Shown here: one piece after another, positions 2,034 through 53,107 of the stretch
Layout of the letters: each line of letters begins with the position of its first letter
Numbering within the stretch: position 1 is the stretch's first letter
DNA from: Sanghuangporus weigelae
Lineage: Eukaryota > Basidiomycota > Agaricomycetes > Hymenochaetales > Hymenochaetaceae
Length of the DNA stretch: 64,000 bases
NCBI GenBank assembly: GCA_033182465.1
Contig: CP137323.1
Span: 124,001 to 188,000 of the forward strand
Direction of reading: 5' to 3'
Program-made: the position numbers and the translations under genes
Notes under the pieces: generated by a model
What the model was told of the DNA's origin: nothing
The model's database searches: none
Seen by the model: only the letters and a program-made list of their open reading frames with translations

Positions 2034-3091
2034 TTACATGCCTTTCTTCCCAACATACTTTACCAAAAGTTGCTGATATCTAAACCGGAGTTCCACGAAT
2101 CATCAGCGGTAAGATTTTCTCTCGCGACATGAGTAAAAAAAGCTTAGCAGGCACGTACGGCTCGCGTTTCGGCTCGTAGTAGTAACCACAAATCTTTGCC
2201 TCTGGTGCATTCCCAGACCCAGACAATTCTTCGTCATTCCACAAACGTGACTCTTCGCGGTACTCGGAGGAATTAGAAAAGGCTGGTGGAGGTGCGAACT
2301 CGACGTAGATGTAGTAAAAGCCTATGAGGGGTACTTGTGCTTCAGTCTTTTAGATTCAAGATGAGTCAACGGAAAGACTCACCTGTAAAGCTCGCGCCAT
2401 TAAGGTCCTGTGGTCCATCTTCCGGAACGACGTATCGTTCCTTCCAGCGCATGAATAAATCTGGACGGCTCGTGTTGTCTGGAAGCAACAAATCCGGCTC
2501 GATCAGATCTTTCTTCACCTCGTGGAATCCTCTGAATCGTGACCAATGGACTGTATCATCCTGCCGGCTGGTTACCCAATCCTTCGTATCAAATCCGAAG
2601 CGTGTTCCGATAATCTGAGCGTCGAAATATGTCGTCACATCCGGATGAATACCTGTTAGGCCGTGGATAGACAAGTGACCGCAAAGGAAAGAAGCTTCAA
2701 TGTCGATATCCTATTGCTCATAATATATGGAATGAGAGATTGGTTTAAAAGAGCCAAATTTTAGACTAGACAAGAAACGATAACTTACAATAATGTTTAT
2801 CTCGACGTCATAGCTGTTCCGGCCGCTTCTCTGAACGCCCTTGAAAATGGCGCCCGGTTGGAAACACTTGTATCCTTTGGATCGTACACTCGACAGGGCC
2901 GAATCGGTAGATGGATTGAGGTTCCCAGCAGTTCTCTCTTTCTCTTTCACCTGCGTGCTTCTCATGGCCACCTCTTGACTACCGGCATCTCTCGGTACCT
3001 CAGTGATGTCGCTCTCGCGCCCAATGGAGGACAGTGGGATATCAGAGTTGCATGATGGAGGTTGATCAAAGGCATGTGTTCCTTCCATCAT
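2034..3091 (-). CDS. GID4: GID4/Vid24-type substrate receptor of the GID/CTLH ubiquitin ligase
   Basis: Four exons close in phase: 3091-2789, 2710-2383, 2321-2159, 2079-2034, giving 279 aa. The Vid24 beta-barrel starts near residue 75 with FQPGAIFKG, followed by GRNSYDVEINI, FLCGHLSIHGLTG, the FMRWKERYVVP block and GASFTGFYYIYVEF, all matching GID4 family signatures; the protein ends at GKKGM after EPYQQLLVKYV. In other eukaryotes GID4 binds N-terminal proline degrons, in yeast on gluconeogenic enzymes such as Fbp1 and Pck1, and presents them to the RING subunits of the GID/CTLH E3. The N-terminal ~70 residues are Ser/Glu rich and probably disordered. Introns carry canonical GTAAGT, GTGAGT and GTACGT donors. 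The C-terminal tail after the last barrel strand is a little shorter than in human GID4. The start is the first of two adjacent ATGs. Confidence 0.93.
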
Positions 3092-5245
3092 TGCTGACTC
3101 GGATCGCTATGGGATTGAATATTTTGAGGAAAGATACGCGTACGGTGTATCGTTGGTAAGGAGGGATGAGCGTTATAATGACTGATAGTCAAAGAAGTCA
3201 GGGAATGAAGTGTAATCGCGTACATGGGCGCGACTCACAGATTATTGATGGCCAATAATAGTGGAATAGAGTATGTATATGAGATCAGAGCGCTCTCGAT
3301 GAAATACGGATTGAATCGAGCCTTCGGAGTGAAGCATAATTATCACCAATTGACGCCTGCGGAGAAGAGGAAGTTTATTATCTGGGTGCTTTTCCACCTA
3401 TTCTGCCCGAAGTTTTGCATCCGTATCTTGACATTAAATCTGACGAGGTTTGGCTATGTTTTACTATGAATGTCATCAACCAGGACTTCAACCAGGAAAT
3501 TCGCCTTTTACGACGGGCTTGAGGGCAGGCTTGAATATTACACCGCGACGAGTCACATTCGTTGCCTTCCCTCACTCTCCATCCAGGCGAAGGCCGCAAC
3601 TCGAATATTGAGGGAAAAGACGACTTTGCAATAAGCAGCAAACCACGAACCAGCAATGAATTCACGTCCGACGTCTTCGACAATATATCCTTTCGCATCA
3701 CCTGGGAAATGCGCTTCGGTCCTTCTCGTTCGTGGAATACATCATGGAGGGACATGAAAGTTCCTCAAGTATAAACACCATGGTGAGACGTGGGAAGCTC
3801 GCACAACCCAGGTACTTAGGATGGGGAAAGCCGTCGTCATCTTGTCTACGCGTCGCGTGCACGCGACATCCACGAGGCGTGCTACCTCACCTGGTAAGGT
3901 AAATGGTGTCGTGTGAGCCTCCCTTTCCAACTGCTCCTTCTTCATCTGATTCTCTCTCCCTTTACCAAGCTATTCAGCGAAACACACTGGCGCTTCGTTT
4001 CTCTACCCCCACACGCATCTTCTGCGCGTCATCCCTCGAAACCAGATCTCGGTGTGTACGGGTCTCCGGACAGACAAGGAATAGCAGGGACTGTGAACCT
4101 TGTAGTAAGAATGAAGAAAGAACATGTGGCCAACACGCCTCTCGCTTTCCTACGGGAGAACAGACCCAGGGACATTTTCACTATCTAAGGTTAGTCGGGA
4201 TATGCTTGAATTTTGTCGTATGATGACTCACAGAACACGTATGATGGAGTTACTGCAGGCTGCTGCTTCGCCTTATCGCACAGCCCTATGCCCAACTCTC
4301 TTTTACGCGATCGCCTGGCTGCCATGCTGGTTTCTCGAGGCATGCTCAGAGATTGTTTTCGTTGAATTTCGTGAAGTTGACGCCACAAGACGATTCGAAG
4401 ATCAGTGGGATCCCTTGCAGCCTTCTGTACGCTAAATGCTATCAGGCCAGCGTTATTCGAAGTCATAGAACGCACTGTGGACCTCCTGGTAACGGCGTAC
4501 ATCGACGTCATGTTTTGCCCACCGTCGCAAAAATAACTGTTGATTCTAGCCTGGTGATGCTGATCAAGCGCAAAAAGACGCAAAGGATCATCGACCAGAC
4601 AGACGCAAACACGCGATCTCCTCGTGCTGGCTCGCTTGCGTGGGCGGTGACTAACGGAATGTCCTATTCCTTATCGCAAGACCTCCAGAGCTTCTCTTTG
4701 TTGAAATCTTTCTTTCTGCCTCCAGGATACCGCGTTTTGTTAATCTCAGGAATCGATGTCGAAGATGTTCCAGGAAAAGGAACTACCAAAAAATCAAATG
4801 CAAGAACGAGATGAAGCAGAGGAAGTGATGCTATGAGCATTCTGGTTGGACTAGAGCTCAGTGACGCTTTCGAGTCGCCGCTCTCTAACCGACTACGATC
4901 AACTTATGACGCGCGGACCGTGCAAATATGAATCTTCGCGCTGCGTTATGAATCTTCAGGAGACGCAAAGTCGTTAAGATAACGTCCCGAAGAGGCGCGT
5001 CCGGGTCCTGATCGCCGTCTTTTGGCCGGAACTCATCAATTATGACGCTCTGTCCTGCCTTTGCTACGTGATGAATGCGGGCGTTCGGGCGTTCGGGTTA
5101 CGTCTCACGAATTGAAGCCTGTTGACTCCCGAGTCCCGAATGAGGGGATTCACAGTGAGGTCGAGACTGATTCCCTCCCGGAGGCAATTGGATATCCACG
5201 TCGACGAGATGAGAGAATAGGGATAGATGAACACTGAAATTTGAA
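3092..5245. other. no recognised gene (upstream of GID4)
   Basis: Short frames occur on both strands (longest 153 codons at 4353-4814 plus), but none shows a domain I recognise, and I could not join neighbouring frames by splice sites into a sensible protein. The first part (3092-3230) is the GID4 5' flank. It could hold decayed gene remnants or a fast-evolving gene that cannot be seen by eye. Confidence 0.35.
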
Positions 5246-5250
5246 TAGTT

Positions 5251-5533
5251 GACCACGTTTAGTAGCAACGAGCTCTGTCTCACGTCCTGGTGCCCTTGGC
5301 GTGTTCTCTCGCCGACACGTGTAACGTTTTCGAAGATTGAAAGCGGAAGATTACCACCGGGACAAGGTCCTTTTCTTCAATGCCGAGCTATGCGGAGGCA
5401 ATAATAGCTGCGTTTGGACAACGGCGAATATACATAACTTAATACGAGCCACGTTTAGCAGCGGCGAGGTACCCTTTCTTGCCGTTCCTCTCATTCTGCC
5501 GCTGACACGTGTAACGTTCTAAAAGACTGAAGA
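5251..5533. repeat. imperfect direct repeat with two CACGTG boxes
   Basis: Two ~90 bp segments (about 5251-5341 and 5446-5533) share CCACGTTTAG at the left and GACACGTGTAACGTT at the right, followed by a similar AAGAYTGAA tail. Each contains the palindrome CACGTG (5316-5321 and 5506-5511), so the period is 190 bp. CACGTG is the core bound by bHLH factors; whether it works here is unknown. Confidence 0.55.
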
Positions 5534-6980
5534 ATGAAGAGGACCGTCTCATGCGGAGTTCGTCTCGCCGCCTTTTTCCTACCGGTACGACCAGCGTTTA
5601 AGGTTCCGTCTGGTTACCCACTTCCCTCCTCCTCCTTTCCATTTGAAAGTTTGTCTGTGCCTTTGGAGTGGGAACGCGAGAGCCGGGTTAGGTTAAATTC
5701 GCGCTCATCTGTCTCGTTCTCTTTTCGACGGGTTTGACGGAGAAGAGCTGTGGATTCTGGATACTCTGGATATGCTGGATACGCTGGACGTTCCAGATAG
5801 ACATTCTGGACGTATGTACATACATGCAGTCCCTGCGAAGTCTTCTCCAGTAGACTCCGACGAACGTGCCGAATTCCTCCTGAATTGCGAATTATACAAA
5901 AGATCTTTTCTTTGCTGAGTAGATTGATTATCGATACGATCACCTTCTCCATGCGCAGTGCCTTCTTGATTCGAGCAGGCATGCTGAGATCTGGAAGGAT
6001 CTTTCCAGTTTGAAAGAAAGCGAGAAGAGAGAAGGGTGCACGATGAATAGGTCCCGTTCGCGCGACTTTCGTACCGAAGTTCCGAGGTGTACTGTGCATC
6101 TGCTAGTGATTACCCTACACGCGCAATCGATCCAGCGCCCGTCCACCCATCGAGTCGGCTGGGACCAGACTTAGTTTGGAGCCCGTAGCAGTTTTGCTTC
6201 TTGATTTGATTTGATTTGTATCGTGTTTTGAAGTTTGTATTGTCTGTTACAGTAACACATAGTCAAACCTGACGCTATCGATACCGCTTTCTCATTTTTG
6301 TCCGGGTGTGCATCAAATTCCATATTGATCGGGATGGAGGATGGAAGATCCGGGCCCGCAAGCTGAGGATAGAGAAAGTAACAATATTATTACTACACGA
6401 CTTTATATATGTACTGTACTGCTTTAGATCGGAATGAGATGAAACGAAGTCAAAGAACGGCGCCTAGTAACCAAACGTGTAATTTTTTACATTCATGTAC
6501 ATATTACTTCAAAGGAAAGGGGAAATGCCAATACAAACAGTGGACGCTGTGTAACTGAAAGACAGTTGAATAAAGAATAAGTCAATTCAGAGATCTACGT
6601 ACTGTGTGTATATATATATAGACAAGATGCGGGAAGGCGAGGATGCGATGCATGCATATATAATTTAGGTTCTACATTGTGCTTTATAGAGGGATATTAT
6701 AGTAGCAATATTAATAACAAGATGAAATGAAATAGAGTCAAAGTGGCAGCGGCTTTAGCTTGGTGACAATACGTACAAAGAAAGGCGCTTGCATAGGGAC
6801 AAATAATGTATGTAGAATGTAGAATGTACAGTAAATGAAAGGCAGTCGAGACAGAGATCTAGTAGACGGACAAGAAGCGGGAAGGCAAGATTGAACAATG
6901 TTAGCGTTATAGGTTGGCTGAATACAATAAGAAGAAGAAAAGGCGACGGCGATGACCGAGGCCAAATATACCTGAATAAG
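5534..6980. other. gene-poor stretch with a 9 bp minisatellite
   Basis: No recognised gene. Positions 5753-5789 hold four imperfect tandem copies of a 9 bp unit of the form GATAYGCTG. From about 6440 the sequence becomes AT rich, and one block (about 6440-6600) resembles another at 6735-6860, both ending near an AGAGATCTA motif. Confidence 0.4.
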
Positions 6981-47573: not shown

Positions 47574-48216
47574 TCTTAATATTAAAAACAGGACCGTACT
47601 TTTCTTCACAGCCACCGCTGACTAAATTCGGACCTTGAATTTGAGCACTTCTTTTCTCATTTCCCGCGTGATGCCAAGGTGGTTCTACTACATTAAGGAA
47701 CTTGATCGCCGGTGATCTGCAGATCGATCTGCCTCCACACCACTTCATCAACACATTAATTCATTCTTTGAGGGAAAAAAATCAGAAAAAAAGCAGGGAA
47801 ACTCAAAGCATGTATGCATTACATGGATGTGCTCATAAGCCAAAGCACTATTCAAGCCTTGCTGGAAAAAAGGAAAAAAACTAGGAAAGTTTCGGACATG
47901 TATGCAATGAACAAATGTGATCAGCATCCAAAAACTCTGTTCCTCCTTGCATGATTCAATTCAGTGTGTCCCATTGAACTGATTAATTTGGGTAAAGCTG
48001 CAAAAGTTTTTGCCACATATGAACAGACCAGATAAGCTCAATGGAGTTCCTTTTATTTTCTTATTTCTGTATATGCACAAATCAGTGCACCTGATTTCAA
48101 GTGTACAACTGATGTGTTGAATTTATATCAAGATAGATAGACAGAATAACTAGTAATAAAGACTAGAATTTATGGCCAGCAGGTTTTTCGGCAAAGCCGA
48201 AAACACAAGTTGCTAG
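47574..48216 (+). mobile_element. Helitron-like unit 1 of 3
   Basis: Begins TCTTAATATTAAAAACAG after an A and ends with the hairpin TTTTCGGC/GCCGAAAA (48185-48203), a 9 nt spacer and CTAG. A 5' TC, 3' CTRR and hairpin ~10 nt before the end define Helitrons, which transpose by rolling circle and insert between A and T. It has no Rep/helicase, so it is non-autonomous, about 643 bp. Confidence 0.75.
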
Positions 48217-48851
48217 TTTATATTTAAAACAATACGCCGATTTTTACACAGCCACTGCTGACTAAATTCGGACCTTGAATTTGAGCGCTTCTTTTCTCAT
48301 TTCTCGCATGATGCCATGGTGATTCTACTACATTAAGGAATTTGATCGCCAGTGATCTGCAGATCGATCTGCCTCCACACTACTCAACATTAATTCATTC
48401 CCTGAGAGAAAAAAATCACAGAAACAGCAGGGAAGCTTAAAGCATGTATGCATTACATGGATGTTGCTCATCAGCCAAAGCACTATTCAAGTCTTTCAGG
48501 GAAAAAGGAGGAATACTAGGAAAACTTTGGACATATATGCAATGAATAAATGTGATCAGCATCCAAAAACTCTGTTCCTCCTTGCACAATCCAATTCAGT
48601 GTGTCCCATTGAACTGATTAATCTGAGTAAAGCTGTGAAAGTTTCTGCTACATATGAACAGACCAGATTTGCTCAATGGAGTTCCTTTTATTTTCTTATT
48701 TCTGTACATGAGCAAATCAGTGCACCTGACTTCAAGTGTACAACTGATGTGTTGGATTTATATCAAATTGGATAGATAGAATAACCAGTAATGAAAACTA
48801 GGATTTATGGCCAGCAGGGTTTTCGGCGAAGCCGAAAACACAAGTTGCTGG
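48217..48851 (+). mobile_element. Helitron-like unit 2 of 3
   Basis: Directly abuts unit 1. It is the most diverged at its 5' end (TTTATATTTAAAAC instead of TCTTAATATTAAAA) but keeps the body and ends with the perfect hairpin (48820-48838) and CTGG. A frame of ~100 codons (48461-48775) runs through the body but is not a recognised protein. Confidence 0.72.
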
Positions 48852-49500
48852 TCTTAATATTAAAAACAGGACCGTACTTTTTTCTACACAGCCACCACTG
48901 ACTAAATTCGGACCTTGAATTTGAGCACTTCTTTTCTCATTTCCCACGTGATGCCGAGGTAATCTTACTACATTAAGGAGTTTGATTGCTGGTGATCTGC
49001 AGGTCAATCTGCCTCCACATCACTTCATTAACACATTAATTCATTCTTTGAGGGAAAAAAATCAGAAAAAAAACAGGGAAACTCAAAGTATATATGAATT
49101 ACATAGATGTGCTCATAAGCTAAAGCACTATTCAAGCCTTGCTGGAAAAAAGAAAAAAACTAGAAAATTTTCGGACATGTATGCAATAAACAAATGTGAT
49201 CAGCATTCAAAAACTCTGTTCCTCCTTGCACAATTCAATTCAGTGTGTCCCATTGAACTAATTAATTTGGGTAATGCTGCAAAAGTTTTTGCCACATATG
49301 AACAGACCAGATAAGCTCAATAGAGTTTCTTTTATTTTCTTATTTCTGTATATGCACAAATCAGTGCACCTGACTTCAAGTGTACAATACAACTGATGTG
49401 TTGAAATTATATCAAGATGGATAGACAGAATAACCAGTAACAAAGACTAGAATTTATGGCCAGCAAGGTTTTCAGTGAAGCCGAAAACACAAGTTGCTGG
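48852..49500 (+). mobile_element. Helitron-like unit 3 of 3
   Basis: Starts exactly after CTGG of unit 2 with TCTTAATATTAAAAACAG, identical to unit 1 at this end. The 3' hairpin (49469-49487) has lost some pairing (TTTTCAGT versus GCCGAAAA). It ends CTGG at 49500 and is followed by T, completing the A/T insertion site of the whole array. Confidence 0.75.
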
Positions 49501-49593
49501 TTGACTTAGACGAGATGTCATAAATTATGTTACTGGCCTGGTTATGTAATATCAATCGGTCTGTTGCAGCAGGTTTCTGATCAGTCAAACTAG

Positions 49594-50135
49594 AATTTAA
49601 TCACAGTGGGCAAATACCGGTTTCAGCAGTGCTACAATAATGGTCAAAAGTAGAAGCAAAATTAATAATTGCATTAATGATTGCGGCAGGGTCGTGACTT
49701 ATTAATGCAACGTGCCTGACGGCTTTGTTGAGACAATAAATTGCATAATCAATTGCAAAAGAGGTTTCAACCCATCTCATCTGGGATTACAAATAGCAAC
49801 ATGTTTGCAACAGAAAGGGAAATTTGAAGTTGAGTCACGGTGGCAACTTATTATGTCACTCGCGATTTCCCTCTTTGTGGGATTTTAAAAGTCACAACTG
49901 ACGCGATTTGTAATTTTGCTACTGGTTGCACTCGGGTGGGCGATCAGTGGTCACTCAACGGGCCGTTCCACGGGCGATCACCGCATTCAGTGGGCGATCT
50001 GCAGGTGATCTGCGGGCAATCACCGGGCGATCAATGTGGGAGCAATGGGACGCGTCAATTTCTTGTCCTCTTGCCACCGTCATCCTCCATCCTGTCTTCC
50101 TTCACCGTCCCTGCTTACTTTAATGACTCGCAATG
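49594..50135. repeat. left inverted repeat of a gene-capture composite
   Basis: This ~540 bp segment matches, in reverse orientation, 52588-53107. Shared landmarks: GTGGGCAAATACCGGTTTC near the outer end, TTTGTTGAGACAATAAATT, TATGTCACTCGCGATTTCCC, the CAGTGGGCGATC iterations, and TTACTTTAAYGACTCGCAA at the inner end. Several short insertions/deletions show that the copies are not fresh. No coding capacity. Confidence 0.75.
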
Positions 50136-50139
50136 TTAA

Positions 50140-51120
50140 GTAATAAAGGGCACTAGTACTTTATTTCTGGTATCAACTCTGGCACACGCAGGGCAATCAG
50201 TATTTGACAGATTTATAAGTACATGTTCTTCACGCCTCAACATCCTCCGAATCATCAATGAACTGAAGGCCCCTGCTATCGTACGGTCTCGACAAGAAAG
50301 CGCAAGACTAACAATCACGCGAGGTGAACTTGCGGATACCGCAAAGACTATCCTGAACAATAGTCATAACGGTCTTGTTCACTTGGGGCGAAATGATCTA
50401 CCTGAGCACCCACGCTATTTGACTGAGTTCGGCCCGAGTCTCCTAGGCCTGAGGAACGCTACACGGAGATCAGAAATAAAAACACAAGGCGGCAGTGATA
50501 CGACATCACCATCGAAGTCGGCATTATACGAAGGAGTGACAGAAAGATTGAGGCGAAGGCTGCATCAAATTGGTCAGAGTTCAGGCATGAATATATAGGC
50601 CGGTTGGGCATGCACTCGAATAGGGCATTGGTTGGACCCTGTGACACATCATAGACATCTTGTGTAACGATGGCTATCGGTTGAACAGGACATAACTGCA
50701 TTGATAGGTAAAAGATCAAGCGCTACTGAATGGTAGACTTACTCTCCGTTCCTTGAGTGCCTTTCAATGACCCGTCCATATAGAAGAATTGCTTCAGCAC
50801 GCTTATTGTACCAAAGATCTATAGCTCCCCAGTATCTCGAGTCACTTATCGCGTTCCAGTGTATTCTCTTGGTCCGTTCCGCACGAGCTCTTGTAAGCAT
50901 GCGATATTGTACGGAGTCACTGTCAAACAGTTTAAATTACGCATCAATCAAAACGCTCTTTCTACTAACCTCTTCTTGGTACGTAAGAGTCATGGCGATG
51001 CTCTTCGGCACACCAACTTCGTCAAGTTCCAGCTTTGGGTCTCGGTGATGACAGTACGTTCCAAATAATTGACACGTTTCTCCATCAAGTTACCACGTAG
51101 ACGACCCTCCTACTGTAAAA
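50140..51120 (-). pseudogene. captured fragment of RNA polymerase II largest subunit (RPB1)
   Basis: Minus-strand pieces match conserved RPB1 blocks in order: GNLMEKRVNYLERTVIT (~51080), ELDEVGVPKSIAMTLTY (~51020), a VTPYNIACLQELVRNGP block (~50930), DLWYNKRAEAILLYG with IVERH-like RVIERH (~50800), YVLFNR and SLHKMSMMCHRV (~50690), and PQVNKTVMTIVQDSLCGIRK (~50390). The active-site DFDGDE loop between the last two is not visible. Frame changes and stops occur, and intron sequence remains between blocks, so this is a DNA-level copy, not a retrocopy. It cannot encode a polymerase. The 5' edge starts inside an intron acceptor next to the SMC1 fragment. Confidence 0.82.
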
Positions 51121-52197
51121 GAGTACGAATAACTTTGACGGGTCGACCAGACTTTTGTAGAGCTTGAGGTACCCCAGCAATGTCGTTGCCCATGTATATG
51201 GCGACATGGAACTGGACATGACGAGTTTCCTCGTTCGTACAGAGAATTCTCAAGCTAATGACCACAAACTGGAACTCGCCAGACGCTCGAGAACGGATGT
51301 AATTAGCAATCTTGGCGACATTCGTATTGTCGAGTGCTGCATCAACCTCATCAAGAACGAAGAAAGGAGCTGGTTGATAACTACAGTGACCGGCGAAAAA
51401 GAGTATAAGGAAGACAACTGTGAGAACAACGAAGAAAGGTATACCTGTGAATAGCGAAAAGCAACGCGAGAGCAGCGACGGACGGTCTTCTCTCCTCCCG
51501 AGAGCTTGCTTTTCAGCTTCATGCTTCTTTATAGCTGCGTGCTCGACATTTATAGCGGTGTCAAGCATTGCAAGGCGCTCCTGCAGCATTGCCAGTTGCT
51601 GTTCTTCGCATTGCGACCTGGATGCATCGCTCAATAGGCCCGTTCTTCACGCAGATCGAGGGGAAAAGGAACTTACTGATGGGTAAGACGTGCAATCTGT
51701 GTCTCGAAACGCCTACGGACCGCAGCCTCCTCGCTCATGGCTTTCAGCTGCCGCGATTCGTATTCTCGAATGTCTTCCATGCCAATTCGCGCGCAGAATT
51801 GTGCGAATATTCCATCCTCCGCTTTGTTAACGACTGCTGACAGAGCTTCTATCCTTTCGACCAGAGCAGCAAGATTCGTTCTAGCCTGTAAATTCCGTTT
51901 CAGTATCTCCAAAATGGCATTGTGTCACAGGGTGCGATCCTGCTTCAACTCTGGCGCTTTCTTTTTCATTTTGCTCTTGATGTGTCGCAGCTCATCCTGC
52001 TTGCCTTTAAGACTTGAGGTCAAAGCGGTCTGTGGCATTGGAGGTCACTCCTGAGTACCCTGACAAAGGAGCCAACGTTAAGCATACCAAGTCATTTTTT
52101 GCTAGAGTCAAGGATGATTCTATGCGTGTGATCTCGGCCACTAAATTCTCACCTGCTTTACTTCGCGGCCTTGATTTGTTCAGGTCACGCAGTTGCT
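51121..52197 (-). pseudogene. captured fragment of cohesin subunit SMC1
   Basis: On the minus strand: NLVAEITRIESSLTLAKNDL (~52130), KQDELRHIKSKMKKKAPELK (~52000), EDGIFAQFCARIGMEDIREY (~51800), RFETQIARLTHQ (~51690), then the C-terminal ABC signature KLSGGEKTV (~51500) and the Walker B/D-loop [13 protein letters not shown] (~51360) followed by [11 protein letters not shown]. These are typical of SMC1. Most of the second coiled coil between ARLTHQ and KLSGGEKTV is missing, and frame breaks are present. An intron interrupts the block after the signature motif. It is joined head to tail with the RPB1 fragment, both on the minus strand. Confidence 0.82.
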
Positions 52198-52589
52198 TAC
52201 AGCGTGTTCAGAAAACCTTGACAGTGTCAACTTTTCATATATATTTTTTGCTCAGGGTCCTGCCTTATGGGAAAACCTCGGCTGCCCATTTTTGTGTGCA
52301 GTTATGCTATTACACTTCCCACCACAGCTTATCATCCCTCTTGCAATACTGGCAGAGACAAGCATTGCAAGCCATGTTGGTATTAAGTAGGTCATGCACT
52401 GTGCAGGACACAGAGTTCCCAGTCTGAATTGTATTATATTGTGTCTCTTAAACATAGTAGATAGTGTCGAAATCATTCGGGTTCACGCGGAAGTTGTGAG
52501 TGTGCGGCTTTCCCAAACCGGACAGCCGAGGCTAAGCGAAAAAAATATATGAAAAGTTGACACTGTCAAGGTTTTCTGAACACGCTGTA
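52198..52589. mobile_element. TA-flanked MITE (Tc1/mariner-type)
   Basis: The element 52200-52587 (388 bp) has inverted ends of about 50 bp starting CAGCGTGTTCAGAAAACC and continuing through TTGACAGTGTCAACTTTTC and ATATATTTTTT. TA dinucleotides flank both sides (52198-52199, 52588-52589), the Tc1/mariner target. There is no transposase, so it is non-autonomous. It separates the SMC1 fragment from the right inverted repeat. Confidence 0.8.
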
Positions 52590-53107
52590 ATGTTGCGAGT
52601 CGTTAAAGTAAGCGGGAATGGTGAAGGAATGGAGGATAATGATGGCAAGAAGACAAGAGGTTGACGCGCCCGTTCATCGCCCACTGAATGTTAGGTGTCC
52701 CGCAGATCGCCTGCGGATCGCCCGCGGATCGCCCACTGAAAGCGATGATCGCCCACCCGTTGAGTGACCACTGATCGCCCAGTGGCGAAATTACAAATTG
52801 CATCACTTGTGACATTGAAAATCCCACAAAGAGGGAAATCGCGAGTGACATAATAAATTACCACCATGATGCAACTTCAAATTTCCCTTTCCGTGGCAAA
52901 CATGTTGCTATTTGTAATCTCAGATGGGTCGAAACCCCTTTTGCAACCGATTATGTAATTTATTGTCTCAACAAAGCCGACAGGTACGTTGCCATAATAA
53001 GTCACAACCCTGATGCAATCATTGACGCAATCATCAATTTCATTTCTGCTTTCGACCGTTATCACTGCCGAAACCGGTATTTGCCCGCTGTGAATATGTG
53101 TTAAATT
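52588..53107. repeat. right inverted repeat of a gene-capture composite
   Basis: Reverse-complement partner of 49594-50135. The inner part (52680-52800) is rich in GATCGCCC words; the outer end reads CGGTATTTGCCCGCTGTG. The bases just outside the two repeats do not form an obvious matching target duplication. It lies 45 bp from the SDR stop codon. Confidence 0.72.

Follow-up and report, generated by a model that had tools for sequence, protein, structure and literature searches.

A 3,491-bp element at positions 49602 to 53092 of a 64,000-nt stretch of the Sanghuangporus weigelae genome (C6:124001-188000, contig CP137323.1, here called the window; the genome comprises 33.87 Mb in 13 contigs) carries pieces of two essential host genes, RPB1 (largest subunit of RNA polymerase II) and SMC1 (cohesin), between long terminal inverted repeats (TIRs). 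We conclude that it is very probably a non-autonomous, Pack-CACTA-like transposon with the TIRs of a CACTA (EnSpm/CMC) family. It is a hybrid: its left TIR and RPB1 piece come from an RPB1-bearing element, and its SMC1 pieces and right TIR come from an SMC1-bearing element. The left TIR (49602 to 50143, plus strand, 542 bp, ending in CACAGTGGGCAA) and the right TIR (52591 to 53092, minus strand, 502 bp, ending in CACAGCGGGCAA) align to each other at 79% identity (E = 3.1e-130), bearing out the enclosure by inverted repeats of ~530 bp that a preliminary description of this DNA had proposed. The limits proposed there, 49594 and 53107, did enclose the element, but its exact borders lie slightly inside them. 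The termini read CACAG...CTGTG, and the same three bases, AAT, flank them on both sides as a target-site duplication (49599 to 49601 and 53093 to 53095). The left TIR holds four copies of the subterminal motif GGGCGATC, and the right TIR holds four GATCGCCC motifs; of nine occurrences of GGGCGATC in the whole window, only one lies outside the arms, and none lies in the cargo.

The cargo lies on the minus strand, with the SMC1 piece joined directly to the RPB1 piece, so that, as had been noted, the two are oriented alike and abut without a spacer. The RPB1 piece (50310 to 51222) runs from the end of domain 1 to the start of domain 3 and is 85% identical to C1:3995351-3996292; the intact RPB1 gene lies on C1 near 3.99 Mb (locus L014). 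Between the RPB1 piece and the left TIR is a filler (50144 to 50309) that is common to the related elements L009, L010, and L013 and gave no Pfam match over the cut-off. The SMC1 cargo consists of a 3' piece that includes the Walker B region (51221 to 51506; 97% identical to C8:459921-460203) and an upstream piece (51500 to 52196; 89% identical to C8:461350-462053), both matching the SMC1 gene on C8 near 0.46 Mb (L015). In the gene itself the two stretches are not contiguous (L015 positions 3422 to 3704 and 4851 to 5554); the intervening 1,146 bp is missing from the element, where the pieces overlap by 7 nt. The same internal join is present in L011 and L012 and is therefore older than the window element. 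Pfam searches of the window frames placed RPB1 domains 3 and 2 within 50308 to 51089 (PF04983 and PF00623, both over the cut-off), and a 178-aa frame at 51110 to 51646 reads from SMC_N (PF02463, over the cut-off) into RPB1 domain 1 (PF04997, below the cut-off, and just above it when searched in six frames). In a PDB comparison, the best match of this frame was SMC1 (6yuf, 4.6e-18), and RPB1 was also matched. The alignment of the RPB1 piece with the gene continues through the introns, which have thus been kept, as the preliminary description had recognized; the exons contain single-base gaps, and the frames are broken. The RPB1/SMC1 joint (51221 to 51222) lies inside an RPB1 intron, ~10 nt from its acceptor, which bears out its placement there in the preliminary description.

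Because the parent genes lie apart, the introns are retained, and other copies carry other cargo, capture at the DNA level by a TIR element, as first suggested in the preliminary description, is supported. The same TIRs, sought in other copies, enclose RPB1 without SMC1 (L009 and L010), SMC1 without RPB1 (L011 and L012), or, in the window, both; the repeats are thus not cargo-free single copies, as a merely accidental enclosure would have required. Capture of host gene pieces is well supported, and the cargo was presumably copied as DNA. Had SMC1 and RPB1 been neighbors elsewhere, they could have been copied jointly between chance inverted repeats, and their common orientation without a spacer would suit such a segmental duplication. 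However, a search for the parents found them on C1 and C8, not adjacent, which excludes this explanation, and the TIRs, the target-site duplication, and the existence of sister elements that hold only one of the two cargoes also speak against it; we consider its probability negligible.

The two arms of the window element have different affinities. In an arm comparison with FastTree, the two arms differed from each other by 13.9%. The left arm was closest to those of the RPB1-bearing elements L009 (7.4%), L010 (8.2%), and L013 (9.7%), with a support of 0.973 for the group; the right arm grouped (support, 0.982) with those of the SMC1-bearing elements L011 (5.8 to 6.9%) and L012 (10.3%) and was 10.0% from that of L017. 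One value weighs against this division, in that the right arm was 5.0% from a short arm of L020, over 141 sites only. L011 (C10:457026-459395) itself has TIRs that are 98.7% identical, a TCC duplication, and SMC1 cargo without RPB1. At the joint between the cargoes, both donors have AAC and the window element has GAC, leaving ~3 nt of microhomology. From the arm groupings and the cargo matches, it follows that the window element combines two Pack elements, the left side coming from one and the right side from the other. Two neighboring elements may have been mobilized as one, or the template may have been switched during repair. Plant hybrid elements have been attributed to neighboring insertions that were re-mobilized together (PMC13317346, PMC8903248; here and below, papers are cited for their relevant parts); template switching in repair would give the same appearance. 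A nested miniature inverted-repeat transposable element (MITE) of 388 bp with a TA duplication (52200 to 52587) lies outside the capture itself, between the SMC1 cargo and the right TIR. The corresponding site is empty in L011 and L012, so this MITE was inserted later than the cargo was captured. The MITE has been active recently, since ten other genomic places match it at 97 to 100% identity.

The assignment to CACTA draws on relatives elsewhere in the genome. No transposase was seen in the window element, the interior of which is made up of cargo, filler, and the MITE. Among 16 elements for which both ends were fetched (L012, L013, L016, and L017, without a second readable end, are left out), 14 have an exact 3-bp duplication, with ends CAC...GTG. 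The end motif CACASCGGGCAA occurs at 207 genomic sites (105 forward and 102 reverse) versus 4 for the reversed control (2 and 2). Two pairs of converging end sites, C1:195805/215722 and C6:2027145/2045731, bound elements of 19,918 and 18,587 bp with the duplications TTT and ATT. The fetched parts of these two ~19-kb elements are about 97% identical; the two TIRs of the C1 element match each other at 97.4% over 425 columns, and those of the C6 element at 95.7% over 515 columns. At E values up to 0.1, the genome contains three matches to the CACTA transposase domain PF02992, two of them inside these same-TIR elements; a 532-aa frame in a 2-kb stretch of the C6 element matched it at an E value of 1.1e-11 and also gave a weak Plavaka match, below the cut-off. 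Both elements hold an RPB1 piece just inside one TIR. At the other end of the ~19-kb elements, three long in-line frames (L018:677-3721, where they measure 437, 381, and 195 aa; also L019:5231-8275) had no Pfam match; they could possibly encode a second protein of this CACTA lineage. Plavaka (8) and KDZ (3) transposase matches in the genome all fall outside the elements studied.

CAC...GTG ends, a 3-bp duplication, and the tnp2-type transposase found in the long relatives that share its TIRs together support placing the window element with CACTA/EnSpm (CMC) transposons. Subterminal repeats are a further feature of CACTA/EnSpm elements, and the window element has them (four copies of GGGCGATC in each arm), but L028 of family C (described below) has none. 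The window element also resembles Pack-TYPE elements in holding host gene pieces with sources elsewhere and in sharing its TIRs with elements that hold different cargo. We infer that the tnp2-type (PF02992) transposase of the ~19-kb relatives would move the window element. Several observations weigh against this assignment. Two of the 16 elements lack a clean 3-bp duplication (it is shifted in L026 and absent in L027), and the TTT duplication of the C1 element is weak because it sits in a run of T. The TIRs here (about 400 to 540 bp) are much longer than those of plant CACTA elements. The ~19-kb elements, read outside their middle parts (10 kb in the C1 element and 8.5 kb in the C6 element) and over 2 kb of the C6 middle, are presumed to be autonomous, and the mobility of the window element is deduced from sequence features. 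The preliminary description had instead looked to Pack-MULEs and Helitrons, both of which carry gene pieces with introns. Pack-MULEs make duplications of 9 to 11 bp, however, versus 3 bp here, and Helitrons have neither TIRs nor a target-site duplication, so that the 542- and 502-bp TIRs and the AAT duplication do not fit a canonical Helitron. With CAC ends as well and, from searches aimed at CACTA, Plavaka, and KDZ transposases, a CACTA transposase in same-TIR elements, either identity is highly improbable, and the Pack-CACTA-like assignment stands in its place.

Other structures with related ends were of several kinds. Among the first 100 of the 207 CACASCGGGCAA sites, many pairs are MITE-like units of 130 bp or ~380 to 530 bp. 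A numerous 130-bp MITE with CACACCGGGCAA at both ends (e.g., C1:1193000-1193129) is spread over C1 to C5, the contigs of the listed sites. L048 and L049 are TIR-only palindromes of 761 and 660 bp (93% and 97%) with 3-bp duplications and no cargo; we read them as possible empty vehicles for capture. Self-palindromic elements of ~1.1 kb were also seen at L012:1843-2936 (89%) and at L023:908-1997 (97%); the L023 one sits within a member of family B (described below). C5:276986-290131 was considered as a 13-kb autonomous element and rejected: its 136-bp arms match a MITE nested in L025, no long frame was taken for a transposase on inspection, without a family search, and we judged it to be two MITE copies.

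RPB1 pieces are widespread in this genome. A 4.2-kb RPB1 query gave at least 46 matches; apart from the gene itself, there were 45, and these fall into at least 33 loci (a lower bound, merged by hand within 10 kb, with 40 of 43 candidates scored). Some of the loci were fetched, and a part of the 33 is shown to lie in TIR elements. In L014 coordinates, the fetched pieces form sets that begin and end at different points, three of them belonging to TIR families whose RPB1 stretches overlap: family A spans 3852 to 4802 (85 to 86% identity to the gene; 87% over 107 bp in L013), family B spans 2740 to 4387 (seven copies, 90 to 94% by piece), family C spans 4301 to 5541 (two copies, 88%), and L016 spans 3907 to 4926 (83%). 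A query with L014 positions 1 to 2739, which cover the 3' side of the gene and extend beyond it, gave, besides the gene, 15 matches of at most 155 bp, all in 1086 to 1213, which we take to be the heptad repeat; the long copies thus derive solely from the 5' and middle parts of the gene. Two diverged matches to 5' RPB1, at C10:1797852-1798718 (78%) and C2:2767179-2768149 (75%), are perhaps older captures or could be something else. Converging exact ends 1 to 25 kb apart number six for CACAGCGGGCAA and seven for CACACCGGGCAAAGA, with RPB1 in four of six and seven of seven, respectively. Of the 13 exact-ended elements that measure 1 kb or more, 11 therefore contain RPB1, a count that includes amplified copies of single captures and that used end motifs derived from elements found with an RPB1-containing query. 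The two without RPB1 are L050 and C12:1635819-1636932. When the search was widened to CACASCGGGCAA, eight such pairs lay among the first 100 of its 207 sites (C1 to C5), seven with RPB1; the eighth is the C5 locus judged above to be two MITEs. Because of a familiar-looking coiled-coil peptide, L050 (C11:244474-249337) was considered as a possible capture of a different nuclear gene. That candidate was rejected: five frames gave no Pfam match over the cut-off, the peptide had no PDB match, and the interior of L050 consists of a multi-copy repeat.

The differences between these pieces and the gene favor separate captures of RPB1 from the working gene by families A, B, and C. Where A and B overlap, they have 16 differences from the gene in common (0 nonsynonymous, 6 silent, and 10 intronic); where A and C overlap, the number is again 16 (1 nonsynonymous, 13 silent, and 2 intronic). 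The shared differences are nearly without amino acid change and therefore resemble changes of a working gene. Nonsynonymous-to-silent counts for private changes were 16:10 for A and 15:6 for B in the A/B overlap, and 23:5 for A and 17:8 for C in the A/C overlap; they look mostly like decay. For A, B, and L016 together over 457 sites, 13 differences were found in the gene only, 22, 15, and 34 were private to A, B, and L016, respectively, and 1, 7, and 3 were shared by A and B, by A and L016, and by B and L016. This count used three B copies, and five give similar numbers; the site counts leave out L023 and L025, which are interrupted, and L013, with 107 bp.

Separate captures are favored because neither the A/B nor the A/C comparison reveals a neutral stem in common. 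The alternative is that an ancestor of A, B, and C captured a single long RPB1 segment that was later trimmed differently in each. The families have an end motif in common, and A and B share the subterminal motif; moreover, the tree is unrooted (it includes no outgroup RPB1) and is compatible with one capture followed by immediate radiation. Two features of the changes themselves also count against separate captures. The pooled private changes (71 nonsynonymous to 29 silent) fall somewhat below the random expectation of about 3.5:1 (equal rates, computed on the B region), and C has four sites in common with L016, of which three are nonsynonymous, so that these two may have a common history. 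Against a single capture, the shared changes (0 and 1 nonsynonymous) display no neutral stem, and the endpoints of the three families are not nested (2740 to 4387, 3852 to 4802, and 4301 to 5541). We therefore consider a single capture unlikely.

Protein-level selection on the cargo was considered and rejected in view of the broken frames and the mostly nonsynonymous private changes. Because the frames are broken and change is near-neutral, we ascribe no protein role to the RPB1 pieces and propose that the gene pieces are, at the protein level, passengers. Chimeric or antisense transcripts against the parent genes, as raised in the preliminary description, would be conceivable. Among five of the seven fetched B copies, the cargo differs by 1.53% and the TIR by 2.16% (summed pairs; single pairs were mixed), which gives no clear sign of extra constraint on the cargo. 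The dominance of RPB1 could reflect a capture hotspot, a few early captures that were then amplified, or some advantage conferred by the RNA. In the last case, antisense or small RNA from the pieces might repress RPB1 or impose a cost on the host whenever it silences the element. The presence of RPB1 in 11 of the 13 exact-ended elements and the absence of long copies from the 3' part of the gene would agree with such retention. However, the amplified copies behind that count, the end motifs taken from elements found with an RPB1-containing query, the cargo being barely more conserved than the TIR, and the fact that a hotspot or amplified early captures explain the same counts make it doubtful. 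It is similarly improbable, judged from the sequences, that several CACTA families recurrently and independently took the same part of RPB1 because carriage pays, whether as a shield against silencing or through antisense tuning of RPB1. If this were true, host small RNA directed against the transposon would hit the host's own polymerase gene, and pieces of essential genes would act as a shield.

Plant Pack-CACTA and other Pack-TYPE elements are non-autonomous TIR elements of the CACTA superfamily that carry coding DNA from one or more loci (PMC8903248, PMC13317346). The elements described here resemble them in having gene pieces between TIRs and hybrid members, and they differ in being fungal, in their long TIRs, in the gene piece carried by transposase-bearing elements, and in the recurrence of one gene in several families. 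In fungi, hAT elements have transduplicated histone H3 in Pyrenophora tritici-repentis, where there are a long, likely autonomous form and a short, non-autonomous form, and in Mycosphaerellaceae; the H3 copy taken up in P. fijiensis lacks introns and came from a transcript or retrocopy (PMC3538342, PMC6710886). Those elements, like ours, are fungal DNA transposons that amplify a housekeeping gene, whereas ours are CACTA rather than hAT (8-bp duplication), keep introns, and carry only fragments. Fungal EnSpm elements, treated in PMC12730594 for TET/JBP-bearing families and their relatives, have 5'-CAC..GTG-3' ends and a 3-bp duplication. Our elements agree with them in ends and duplication size, and the transposase frame has weak similarity to Plavaka, but the ends of PlavakaA and PlavakaB differ from those here. 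The relevant parts of that paper do not mention RPB1 or SMC1 pieces, and in the relevant parts of PMC10853768, on a fungal transposon, Pack terms appear in the reference list only.

No fungal Pack-CACTA element with RPB1 or SMC1 was found in the literature searched, with subscription papers mostly outside its coverage. Plants provide well-documented TIR transposons that pack genes, and the closest fungal cases found are hAT-borne H3 and Helitrons. In the basidiomycete Pleurotus ostreatus, Helitrons reportedly carry captured gene fragments; unlike the elements here, Helitrons are rolling-circle elements without TIRs or a duplication. With a compact genome, dozens of RPB1-matching loci, what look like separate captures, and a readable hybrid joint, S. 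weigelae offers a good setting for work on the capture mechanism, on the dominance of one gene, and on whether captured pieces shield a transposon against silencing. Since fungal phylogenies commonly use RPB1 as a standard marker, such copies could also mislead primer-based sequencing. Finally, three tandem copies of a ~640-bp unit (83 to 94% alike by piece) lie at window positions 47574 to 49502 and end just before the element.

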